Positions 4,651-62,377 of a stretch of 64,000 bases of DNA are shown piece by piece (position 1 is the stretch's first letter; the number at the start of each line of letters is the position of its first letter). The stretch is from Sediminibacterium sp. (GTDB lineage Bacteria; Bacteroidota; Bacteroidia; Chitinophagales; Chitinophagaceae), in the NCBI GenBank assembly GCA_030726065.1, contig JANREK010000035.1, forward strand, positions 62,001 to 126,000. Direction: 5' to 3'. A program made the translations under genes and the position numbers. The notes beneath the pieces are model-generated. The model made no database searches. It was not told where the DNA came from and worked only from the letters and a program-made list of their open reading frames with translations.

Positions 4651-4710
4651 AAGAGAATTGAATTACAAATACGGCTAATTGGTTAGCCGTATTTGTAATT
4701 CAATTCTCTT
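4651..4710. terminator. Bidirectional hairpin with perfect 28-bp stem and TTGG loop
   Basis: AAGAGAATTGAATTACAAATACGGCTAA-TTGG-TTAGCCGTATTTGTAATTCAATTCTCTT between convergent genes. Confidence 0.85.
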
Positions 4711-25057: not shown

Positions 25058-26554
25058 ATGTCAACAGCTTCGCTAAAACATCCAAAAGGCTTGTATGTCT
25101 TATTTGCTACTGAAATGTGGGAACGATTTAACTATTACGGAATGCGAGCTATTTTGGTATTGTTTTTAACCAAGGCATTGCTCTTTGACAAAGTATTTGC
25201 TTCCCAAGTATATGGTAGTTATACGGGCTTGGTTTATTTGACGCCTTTGTTAGGGGGTTATATCGCCGATAGATATTGGGGAAATAACCGTTCCATTATC
25301 GCGGGGGGACTTGTTATGGCGATTGGGGAATTTATACTTTTTGGTTGCGGCACTTTTTATCAAAATGCGGATTTATCTGCGATTTTATTTTATTCAGGCT
25401 TGGGTTGTATGATTGCAGGGAATGGTTTTTTTAAACCTAATATTTCAAGTTTGGTAGGTCAGTTGTATCCAAAAGGAGATAAAAGAATAGATTCCGCCTA
25501 TACGATATTTTATATGGGGATTAACACTGGTGGTGCATTGGGGCCCTTTGTTTGTGGTTTTTTTGGAGATACAGGCAATCCAGCTGATTTCAAGTGGGCT
25601 TTTTTCGCAGGCGGAGTAGCTATGTTAATTAGCGTTGTTACACAATTATTATTTCAGAAAAAATATTTAAAAGATCCAGATGGCAATGCCCTAGGAGAAG
25701 CGCCAGCTGGTGCACCAAAATGGTTTCAAAAAATTCCAGTGATGGTGGGCTTTTTATTTTTGTTATCATTAGTAACTATCACATTAGTATACATTGATGT
25801 TAAAGTAGTGAGTTACTTATTTTATTTATTATTGGGTTGTATTACTTTAATTGCATTTATTGTCTTTTCAGATAAAACTTTAAGCGGTATTGAAAAACAA
25901 AAAGTATTGGTAATTTTTGTGGTTTCCTTTTTCGTTATTTTCTTTTGGAGTGCTTTTGAACAAGCAGGTGCAAGTTTAACTTTTTTTGCAGAAGAGCAAA
26001 CCAATCGTGATTTAGGTTTCTTTACTGTTCCTTCTAGTTTCTTTCAATCATTGAACTCAATTTTCGTTGTAAGTTTTGCACCCGTATTTGCTTGGTTATG
26101 GGTGAAATTGGGCAAGTATGAACCTTCTTCTCCTTATAAAATGGCAGCTGGTTTAATGTTATTGGCATTGGGTTATTTTTGGATTGCCACAGGTGTGAGT
26201 GGGGTGGGAACAGGCATTAAAGTAAGCATGATATGGTTGATAGGCATGTATATGCTACATACTTTTGGAGAGCTTTGCTTATCGCCTATTGGCTTGTCCT
26301 TGGTAAATAAATTAGCACCATTAAAGTTTGGATCTTTATTAATGGCAGTATGGTTTACAGCCAATGCCTTCGCTAATAAATTGGCAGGGGTATTTAGTGC
26401 ATTATATCCAGAAAATGGAAAAACAACTTCTTTTATCGGGTATCAAATCACCAACTTGCACGAATTTTTTATGTTTTTTGTTGGGATGGCCGGCGTTGCC
26501 TCCATCATCTTATTCTTCCTGTCAAAAAAATTAAAAAACTTAATGGAACAATAG
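25058..26554 (+). CDS. POT/PTR family peptide MFS transporter
   Basis: EMWERFNYYGMRAILVLFL signature, 12+ TMs; start at the internal Met MSTASLKHPKG. Confidence 0.93.
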   Translation: MSTASLKHPKGLYVLFATEMWERFNYYGMRAILVLFLTKALLFDKVFASQVYGSYTGLVYLTPLLGGYIADRYWGNNRSIIAGGLVMAIGEFILFGCGTFYQNADLSAILFYSGLGCMIAGNGFFKPNISSLVGQLYPKGDKRIDSAYTIFYMGINTGGALGPFVCGFFGDTGNPADFKWAFFAGGVAMLISVVTQLLFQKKYLKDPDGNALGEAPAGAPKWFQKIPVMVGFLFLLSLVTITLVYIDVKVVSYLFYLLLGCITLIAFIVFSDKTLSGIEKQKVLVIFVVSFFVIFFWSAFEQAGASLTFFAEEQTNRDLGFFTVPSSFFQSLNSIFVVSFAPVFAWLWVKLGKYEPSSPYKMAAGLMLLALGYFWIATGVSGVGTGIKVSMIWLIGMYMLHTFGELCLSPIGLSLVNKLAPLKFGSLLMAVWFTANAFANKLAGVFSALYPENGKTTSFIGYQITNLHEFFMFFVGMAGVASIILFFLSKKLKNLMEQ

Positions 26555-26575
26555 CTTCTTCCTATAGCTACTTTT

Positions 26576-26609
26576 AAAAGCCGTTTCGATTCGTCGGGAC
26601 GGCTTTTTT
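26576..26609 (+). terminator. Terminator of POT transporter gene
   Basis: AAAAGCCGT...ACGGCTTTTTT. Confidence 0.75.
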
Positions 26610-26659
26610 GTGTAACCCATTTTGATGAGCATCAATCTATCGCTCTCCGCTGTTTCATT

Positions 26660-26830
26660 GGCAACATAAATCATATTTCTTCTCAGCACGCCATGACGCT
26701 AAAAAATCATAAAATCAAACTAAAACTTAGAACTCGCACTACGTGCTCAAACAGCTAAGTTTTGCACGTTCGATTTTACAATTTTTATAACGCTATGGCT
26801 CAATGTTCAGATAATATGATTCTTATTGCC
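26660..26830. repeat. Large imperfect palindrome (MITE-like, REP-like or structured RNA candidate)
   Basis: Arms GGCAAcataaATCATATT..GCCATgaCGcT..AAAATCaAAC..AAAACTTAG and the reverse complement of CTAAGTTTT..GTTCGATTTT..aaCGCTATGGC..AATATGAT..TTGCC; centre GCAC-TAC-GTGC. Confidence 0.75.
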
Positions 26831-26901
26831 AAATAAATTAATTGAATTGCAGCTTATAAATAGGGCTTGCAAAAACTATTGTTGAGAATGGCATTAGCAG
26901 A

Positions 26902-28839
26902 TTATAGCACCCCTTTTACAATTTCATCTACCACTGCTGGATCTAAAAGTGTGGAAGTGTCTCCTAAACTTTTCAATTCACCTTCGGCAACCTTGCGAAG
27001 AATGCGACGCATAATTTTTCCGGAACGTGTTTTAGGAAGTCCTGATACAAATTGAATTTTATCTGGCTTTGCAATGGGTCCAATAATTCTTGTCACTGTT
27101 TGCAAAATATCCTTACGAATCATATCGGCAGTGCCATGGGTGTTCTGCCCATGTGATCCAGTATAAATGACGTATGCGTAAATTCCTTGTCCTTTAATAT
27201 CATGTGGGTAACCCACTACCGCACTTTCTACAACACCTGCCTGCATATTAATGGCATTCTCCACTTCGGCAGTTCCTATTCGGTGCCCACTTACATTTAA
27301 TACATCATCCACGCGACCTGTGATTCTAATTTGACCTTGTTCGTTTTTTAATGCACCATCTCCTGTGAAATATAAATTTTCATAGGTGGCAAAATAATTG
27401 GTTCTGCATATTTCATGATCGCCATAAGTGGTTCGCAATGTGGAAGGCCATGGTTGTGTAATACATAAATTACCACGGTATAAACCATCTTCCATCGTAG
27501 TAACTTCCGCTCCTTTATCATCCACTAAAATTGTTTTTACACCTGGTAGTGGATAGGTTGCCCAGCCTGGTTTCCCAGGGGTGATGCCTGCCATATTGGA
27601 AATCATGATACCACCTGTTTCTGTTTGCCACCAGGTGTCAACAATAGGACATTTTTTCTTTCCAATATGCTCATCATACCAATGCCATGCTTCCTCGTTG
27701 ATCGGTTCGCCAACAGTACCTAACACTTTCAAACTACTTAAATCATGTCCTTGCACCGGCCCTAATCCAAATCCCATTAAGGAACGAATTGCAGTAGGCG
27801 CGGTATATAAAATGTTTACTTTGAACTTATCGATGATGTCCCAAAACCTTCCAGCATCTGGGAATGTAGGAATCCCCTCAAACATTAAGGAAGTACCCCC
27901 TGCACTTAAAGGCGCATATACAATATAGCTATGTCCCGTAATCCATCCGATATCTGCGGTACAAAAAAAGATATCATTGGGTTGGTATTGAAAAACATTT
28001 ACAAAAGTATAATTGGTGTAAACCATATATCCAGCAACACTATGCACCACCCCTTTTGGTTTTCCAGTGGAACCAGAAGTATATAAAATAAATAAAGGGT
28101 CTTCTGCATCCATCTCAGCAGCGTCAACATGTGTGATGTCTTGAGATTCTACTTTTTTAATTTCATCCTCCCACCAAACATCACGGCCTTTTAACATGGA
28201 TACTGCTGTTCGGGTACGTGTGCAAACAATAACGCGTTTCATTGTTTTATTTCCGATCAAAGCATCATCAATGACGGACTTTAATGGAATATCTTTCGCT
28301 CCGCGATAAGCGCCATCGCAGGTAATAATAAATTCAGCTTGTGCATCCTCTAATCTGTCCGCAATACTTTGTGCCGAGAAACCGCCAAAAATAACACTAT
28401 GAATGGCACCAATACGCGCACAAGCCAATACGGCAATGGCTAGTTCAGGAATCATACCCATATAAATACAAACACGGTCTCCTTTTTTTACGCCATTATT
28501 ATAAAGTACTTGTGCAAATTGACAAACTTTTAAATGTAGCTGTTTGTAGGTAATAATGCGATGGTGTTCCTCGGGGTCATTCGGTTCCCAAATTAATGCG
28601 GGCGTATCGCCTTTTTTTTCAAGATGTCGATCAATACAATTTTCGGTAATATTTAATTTTCCGCCTTTGAACCATTCAATTTTAGGTTCCTTAAAATTCC
28701 ATTCAGAAACAGTATCCCATTTTTTTCGCCATGTAAAATGTTCGGCAATTTCACCCCAAAATTTTTCTGGTTCGGCAATACTTTTCTTATAGGCTTCGTG
28801 GTAGTTGTCTAAATTTTTAATTTGGTAAGGGTAGCTCAT
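26902..28839 (-). CDS. acs: Acetyl-CoA synthetase
   Basis: FILYTSGSTGKPKGVVHS, DTWWQTETGG, C-terminal LPKTRSGKIMRRILRKV. Confidence 0.97.
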   Translation of the reverse strand: MSYPYQIKNLDNYHEAYKKSIAEPEKFWGEIAEHFTWRKKWDTVSEWNFKEPKIEWFKGGKLNITENCIDRHLEKKGDTPALIWEPNDPEEHHRIITYKQLHLKVCQFAQVLYNNGVKKGDRVCIYMGMIPELAIAVLACARIGAIHSVIFGGFSAQSIADRLEDAQAEFIITCDGAYRGAKDIPLKSVIDDALIGNKTMKRVIVCTRTRTAVSMLKGRDVWWEDEIKKVESQDITHVDAAEMDAEDPLFILYTSGSTGKPKGVVHSVAGYMVYTNYTFVNVFQYQPNDIFFCTADIGWITGHSYIVYAPLSAGGTSLMFEGIPTFPDAGRFWDIIDKFKVNILYTAPTAIRSLMGFGLGPVQGHDLSSLKVLGTVGEPINEEAWHWYDEHIGKKKCPIVDTWWQTETGGIMISNMAGITPGKPGWATYPLPGVKTILVDDKGAEVTTMEDGLYRGNLCITQPWPSTLRTTYGDHEICRTNYFATYENLYFTGDGALKNEQGQIRITGRVDDVLNVSGHRIGTAEVENAINMQAGVVESAVVGYPHDIKGQGIYAYVIYTGSHGQNTHGTADMIRKDILQTVTRIIGPIAKPDKIQFVSGLPKTRSGKIMRRILRKVAEGELKSLGDTSTLLDPAVVDEIVKGVL

Positions 28840-62316: not shown

Positions 62317-62352
62317 AAAAATCCCCGCTCGATGCATCGAGCGGGGATTTTT
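62317..62352. terminator. Bidirectional terminator, perfect 36-bp palindrome
   Basis: AAAAATCCCCGCTCGATG/CATCGAGCGGGGATTTTT between convergent genes. Confidence 0.9.
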
Positions 62353-62377
62353 AGTTTGCGACTTTGCTAATTAAATC

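Follow-up and report, generated by a model that had tools for sequence, protein, structure and literature searches.

A long palindrome between convergent genes of Sediminibacterium, a putative truncated relative of structured repeats dispersed in Bacteroidota

REP elements, palindromes of 20-40 bp tagged with GTAG or CGTC (PMC3733652), are among the described systems closest to the hairpin element reported here. Like REPs, BIMEs and REPINs, the element takes the form of dispersed intergenic palindromes, forms dimers of opposite orientation, occupies convergent or tandem gaps and carries G-T pairs in its stems (PMC3733652, PMC1525189). REPs, however, are short (20-40 bp), high in copy number and linked to RAYTs, whereas our hairpins measure about 150-210 nt, were found in 1-11 copies per genome of the genus, are not accompanied by a RAYT in hairpin-rich genomes, and in other genera end in a 3’ pseudoknot. 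MITEs offer a second comparison: they too are small and non-coding, with orthologous sites either empty or filled, and in one genome of another genus (G337) the same module is embedded in a repeat of ~740 bp with 25-bp inverted ends and 8-bp duplications. The element itself differs in ending at CGGCCT and at its pseudoknot, and it shows neither inverted terminal repeats nor a target duplication that could be seen in the DNA studied here. Integron attC sites are also imperfect palindromes of which one strand folds preferentially, and they can follow genes in same-orientation arrays as the element does at one locus (L368), but the element is longer, has different conserved boxes and a 3’ pseudoknot, and no integron integrase is found in its genus.

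H-type pseudoknots with a U-rich loop are a feature of telomerase RNA and of the SAM-V class. The pseudoknot predicted for our element would share with these the order of its stems and a first loop that is rich in U and adjoins an A-U stem, in which U-A-U triples are possible; it differs from them in that it terminates, on the 3’ side, a hairpin element that is repeated, and it is absent from the copy from which this study started. Rfam gave only sub-threshold chance matches in the DNA analysed, none for the relatives and none above threshold at the element, and no description of the element was found in open-licence papers, an absence that is no proof of novelty. The element may be an undescribed mobile element, structured and RNA-like or acting as single-stranded DNA.

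The palindrome at the POT/acs junction

The window, a stretch of 64,000 nucleotides of Sediminibacterium DNA, contains the convergent genes POT and acs, with stops at 26554 and 26902. The gap between them measures 347 bp, in agreement with the ~350 bp of the initial annotation. Both arms of the annotated imperfect palindrome lie in this gap and are complementary to each other, and its plus-strand tip is GCAC-TAC-GTGC. Its extent, first given as 26660-26830, is slightly wider, about 26658-26833 (about 176 nt, beyond the REP size and tag class). By the motif that defines its sense, the palindrome is a type A hairpin (see below) on the minus strand. On that strand, a covariance model of the genus (R1) matches the conserved core at 26669-26820 with 145 bits (E 4.5e-33), against 28 bits on the plus strand. 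The tip, TGTTTGAGCACGTAGTGCGAGTT (26731-26753, minus strand), is made of a GCAC/GTGC stem, a GTA triloop and tandem G-A mismatches on its flanks.

Folded as RNA, 26655-26835 reaches -66.1 kcal/mol (z -8.1) on the minus strand and -48.8 kcal/mol (z -6.9) on the plus strand, and on neither strand did any of 200 shuffles fold as well; DNA folding again favours the minus strand. Over the 64 kb, cut into 200-nt windows, the minus-strand fold at 26651 is the largest deviation from G+C expectation on that strand. Two other hairpins of the window also lie between convergent genes. The one at 4651-4709, a near-perfect hairpin of ~26 bp (AAAGAGAATTGAATTACAAATACGGC...GCCGTATTTGTAATTCAATTCTCTT), is the strongest plus-strand fold in the window and looks like an unusually long bidirectional terminator; the other, AAAAATCCCCGCTCGATGCATCGAGCGGGGATTTTT at 62317-62355, is a GC-rich bidirectional terminator.

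Could the palindrome itself be a plain bidirectional terminator, or a barrier between convergent genes, free of strand-specific selection and amplified by chance? Its convergent placement would suit such a reading, as would the A-tract/T-tract symmetry that flanks its tip hairpin and the several sites at which we saw, by inspection, no other terminator-like sequence. Yet a simple terminator pattern scan of 26500-26950 reported no terminator-like site, nor the GC-rich stem and T run of an intrinsic terminator at the palindrome, and a classical intrinsic terminator is therefore unlikely here. POT moreover keeps a terminator-like inverted repeat of its own, separate from the element (pair I10, 26576-26607, plus strand); the terminator annotated for POT is thus present as an inverted repeat, though the same simple scan missed it. 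Nor does a plain terminator predict the common tip and internal loops of the copies described below, or an excess of G-T over A-C pairs on one strand. We regard it as improbable.

The junction has also lost something. Comparison with G039 (L034) and G040 (L032) identifies GATGAGCATCAATCTATCGCTCTCCGCTGT at 26624-26653 as the likely remnant of an outer arm of a second, type B hairpin, and near 26870 (26868-26881) the window lacks the type B hairpin of ~150 bp that G040 and G035 hold at this junction. Thus, at POT/acs the window keeps A and a remnant arm of B, while B itself is absent. Neither the lost hairpin, seen in G040, nor the phylum-wide family described below could have been revealed by the window sequence alone.

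Copies, strand and covariation in the genus

A search of its own genome gave one close copy of the palindrome, and BLASTN found the core, 26679-26810, scattered through many of the 147 genomes that represent the genus. With R1, for which 28 copies were used, matches were obtained in 51 of the 147 congeneric genomes, at 1-11 copies each. When 85,000 species were scanned with an exact pattern, 103 stretches were recovered; among the matches listed were metagenome assemblies of freshwater Sediminibacterium, Chitinophagaceae or “Bacteroidetes bacterium”, plus one Comamonas-labelled bin that is probably mislabelled. The copies are of two related types of hairpin, A measuring 151-158 nt and B 147-150 nt, which often stand as divergent pairs (<-A, ~45 nt, B->) and otherwise singly. 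Their outer stems vary between sites, yet pair within each copy. A third, shorter type of palindrome, with tip ATTTGAGCGAAGCGATTGAGAG, was seen at argH and at other junctions of the window’s genome (L252, L253 and L255; C6, C30 and C35), where relatives have type A.

In the genus alignment, 22 of 45 pairs are changed on both sides, and covariation is counted in 126 cells against 41 in shuffles, none of 500 shuffles reaching 126; the signal is lost when the partner is shifted by 1-3 columns. In 100 of 101 copies, the strand that the tip motif marks as sense has the more stable fold of the two. A triloop tip is present in 102 of 103 copies, with C-GNA-G in 91, flanked by TGAG/CGAG tandem G-A mismatches, and the loops are invariant in copies from many different sites. 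At pairs with a Watson-Crick majority, departures on the sense strand of the genus copies are G-T in 176 cases and A-C in 20, an imbalance that argues against neutral decay, since a palindrome decaying as duplex would yield equal numbers. The initial annotation had allowed for a single copy with no compensatory change among relatives; repeats in relatives and compensatory changes were found instead, and the palindrome is not a chance or neutrally decayed one. Its guess of a long structured RNA pointed in the right direction, in that the copies have a covarying structure specific to one strand.

Placement is biased as well. At the loci examined, with flanking genes called mechanically, 61 elements of the genus lie in convergent gaps, 5 in tandem and none in divergent ones, while the other gaps of at least 60 nt at the same loci comprise 26 convergent, 125 tandem and 68 divergent; these counts are not independent, because the same ~20 junctions recur across many species. 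For 88 of the 103 copies the nearest neighbour is the same site in another species, so that movement must now be rare. Gain and loss are nevertheless evident from the empty-site comparison: at POT/acs, several relatives have an empty junction of 7-45 nt and others a filled one, the topA junction was likewise found empty in places, and G127 has hairpin remnants. G040 and G039 hold A and B in opposite order at POT/acs, and at argH, where the window’s genome has a different short palindrome, A stands in opposite orientations in G035 and G039. Two sites of G118, acs and topA, have ~385 bp in common, counted from one hairpin to the other, with A hairpins 99% alike. Copies are therefore still being made, whether transposition or gene conversion is the means; the pair could be a product of the latter. 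No target-site duplication was identified at the window copy or at the G118 sites. Some relatives have, next to their POT/acs hairpins, members of a further palindrome family (TAAAGTAAATATAAAATA...TATTTATATTTTACTTTA; L202, L203, L214, L217 and L223).

Filled and empty junctions, together with the missing B partner of the window copy, the remnants in G127 and the MITE-like repeat that carries the module in another genus, would also be expected of a MITE that inserted long ago and now decays neutrally, with no present function. Such a MITE should accumulate G-T and A-C in equal numbers, which is not what the copies show, and the compensatory changes and the invariance of loops across many sites likewise speak against neutral decay. 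We hold this reading to be very improbable. What survives of the annotated “decayed MITE” is the filling and emptying of junctions between species and, in another genus, the repeat with inverted ends and duplications around the module; neither such ends nor a duplication was identified at the window copy, and the pair bias speaks against neutral decay.

A phylum-wide family with a 3’ pseudoknot

R1 also matches in other Chitinophagaceae genera. A second covariance model, R2, was built from 13 elements of distant relatives, none from the window’s genus. Its matches extend to 55 of 171 genera and to about one in four of the Bacteroidota genomes sampled (109 of 396), commonly with at least 6 copies per matched genome. 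In the window, R2 matches the minus strand at 26690-26799 with 47.2 bits (E 1.1e-9; 1.4e-8 genome-wide), and the other strong hairpin, near 4651-4709, scores only 11.7 bits. It is this match to a model made from other genera that places the window copy in the family. The match covers model positions 9-123 and stops without the pseudoknot, and CUUGAY...RUCAAG does not follow on the minus strand; the copy was thus filed as a truncated relative, not as a full member.

The full element of other genera is 175-210 nt in length, a long hairpin that ends in a covarying 3’ pseudoknot. In other Chitinophagaceae genera the elements share GCGTTAAGAAA.../...TTTTTAGC internal loops, a TGTTTGAGC...GCGAGTT tip and a 3’ tail of the form CCTTGAY-TTTTTG-GTTCTTTTTGT-RTCAAG-ACAAAAAGAAC. 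As RNA, the full element has GUUAAG/A internal loops, a UGUUUGAGC...GCGAGUU tip and, as modelled, an H-type pseudoknot, CUUGAY-U-rich-YUUUU.../RUCAAG. Of 37 distinct tails, 36 have all pairs of the first pseudoknot stem, the sixth pair being T-A, A-T or C-G. In the alignment for the phylum, both partners have changed at 35 of 43 pairs, a count taken from 36 matches whose alignment leans to the model (the model structure guided the fitting of alignments A5 and A6). The multi-copy element has sharp ends, CGGCCT at one and the pseudoknot at the other, and no conserved promoter box was found upstream of 64 distant copies. Its flanking genes in other genera are of mixed orientation (29 ++, 11 --, 11 +- and 10 -+), indicating that a role at 3’ ends is not general.

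Plasmids carry the element too, at least one of them from Fusobacteriota: copies lie on plasmids of Parabacteroides and of Ilyobacter. In a type I-D CRISPR operon on the Aureibacter tunicatorum plasmid pAT6, a full element (L278, 2812-3056) separates cas7d from cas5d. In G738, six full-length elements stand in tandem with a spacing of about 310-490 nt (L367, 2780-4875). In G798 (L368), each gene of a polysaccharide-type cluster with glycosyltransferase and radical-SAM genes is followed by one element in the same orientation, in the manner of a cassette array.

The window DNA itself gave no match to plasmids and phages. A first pattern searched in viral contigs had two matches, both by chance and in coding sequence, and the tip motif TGTTTGAGCGAAGCGAGTT recovered there mostly a different, plasmid-like sequence without the stem, and a few real members. 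More often than chance suggests, this exact 19-mer (L283-L336) turns up in settings that are not related to one another, namely small plasmid-like contigs, a second recurrent contig group and hairpins with other stems; many hairpins may have it as their tip. Two further readings, kink-turn and sso-type (CS-6-like, TAGCGT), were dropped: the geometry is unsuitable, and the sites show no link to rolling-circle replicons.

RNA, single-stranded DNA and the possible role of the window copy

The strand that folds could be DNA. A strand folding during replication or transfer might be cut and pasted by an HUH transposase, an integrase or another recombinase, as in the REP/RAYT and attC systems, and the strand bias would then mark the recombinogenic strand. 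The strand-specific stability of the hairpins would suit such an element, and so would their tandem G-A mismatches, the opposite orientations at one site (G035 and G039), the tandem arrays of G738 and the gene-element-gene arrays of G798. d(GCGAAGC) and GNA loops form extremely stable DNA mini-hairpins (PMC4686876), the form in which C-GNA-G triloops are best known; the tips of the copies would suit either RNA or single-stranded DNA, between which this feature by itself cannot decide. The candidate enzymes, however, are not where they should be. Y1 transposases (PF01797) occur in 34 of 147 congeners but are absent from G000 and from the hairpin-rich congeners, and no match to the integron integrase TIGR02249 over its curated cut-off was obtained in any of the 147 genomes; RAYT and integron integrase were both set aside as movers on these grounds. 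The U-rich-loop 3’ pseudoknot of other genera is, in addition, an RNA-like feature. We consider a DNA element of this kind rather unlikely. The REP/BIME-like family initially proposed holds in so far as dispersed, repeated palindromes occupy convergent junctions, but they are not of REP size, and the hairpin-rich genomes have no Y1 transposase.

The reading that we favour, and think probable, is that the palindrome is a diverged, 3’-truncated copy of a mobile, non-autonomous structured repeat, of which the fold of one strand is under selection, probably with a 3’-end role in this clade. The family identity of the copy is well supported; its function we infer. Judged by sequence comparison, the window copy appears to be a truncated, clade-specific relative of the dispersed repeats: in the freshwater Sediminibacterium-like clade the pseudoknot is gone, and the hairpins stand singly or as divergent A/B pairs. 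The repeat would spread as a non-autonomous unit; neither a mobilising enzyme nor a protein partner was found for it, Y1 transposases and integron integrases being missing from hairpin-rich genomes. Selection would act on how one specific strand folds. The folded form would most likely be RNA that arises by read-through from the genes on either side, the pseudoknot of other genera making RNA the more likely form. Between convergent genes of this clade, the folded RNA would block or protect 3’ ends, and the window copy, with A kept and its B partner lost, may still act as such a barrier. Going further, and only tentatively, one may picture an undescribed mobile structured RNA that is phylum-wide, possibly with a triple-helical pseudoknot. 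It would copy itself with a host or other enzyme, perhaps by way of an intermediate made of RNA or single-stranded DNA, and streamlined freshwater Sediminibacterium would have domesticated it as a strand-specific barrier that separates convergent genes.

If the favoured reading is correct, Rfam would lack a repeated structured element that about one in four of the sampled Bacteroidota genomes contain, and contain in many copies. Its sharp ends, invariant loops and covarying pseudoknot would make it a defined object with which to find a binding protein and the mobilising enzyme, and the convergent junctions, filled in some species and empty in others, would constitute a natural test of the effects of long hairpins on gene ends in streamlined genomes.
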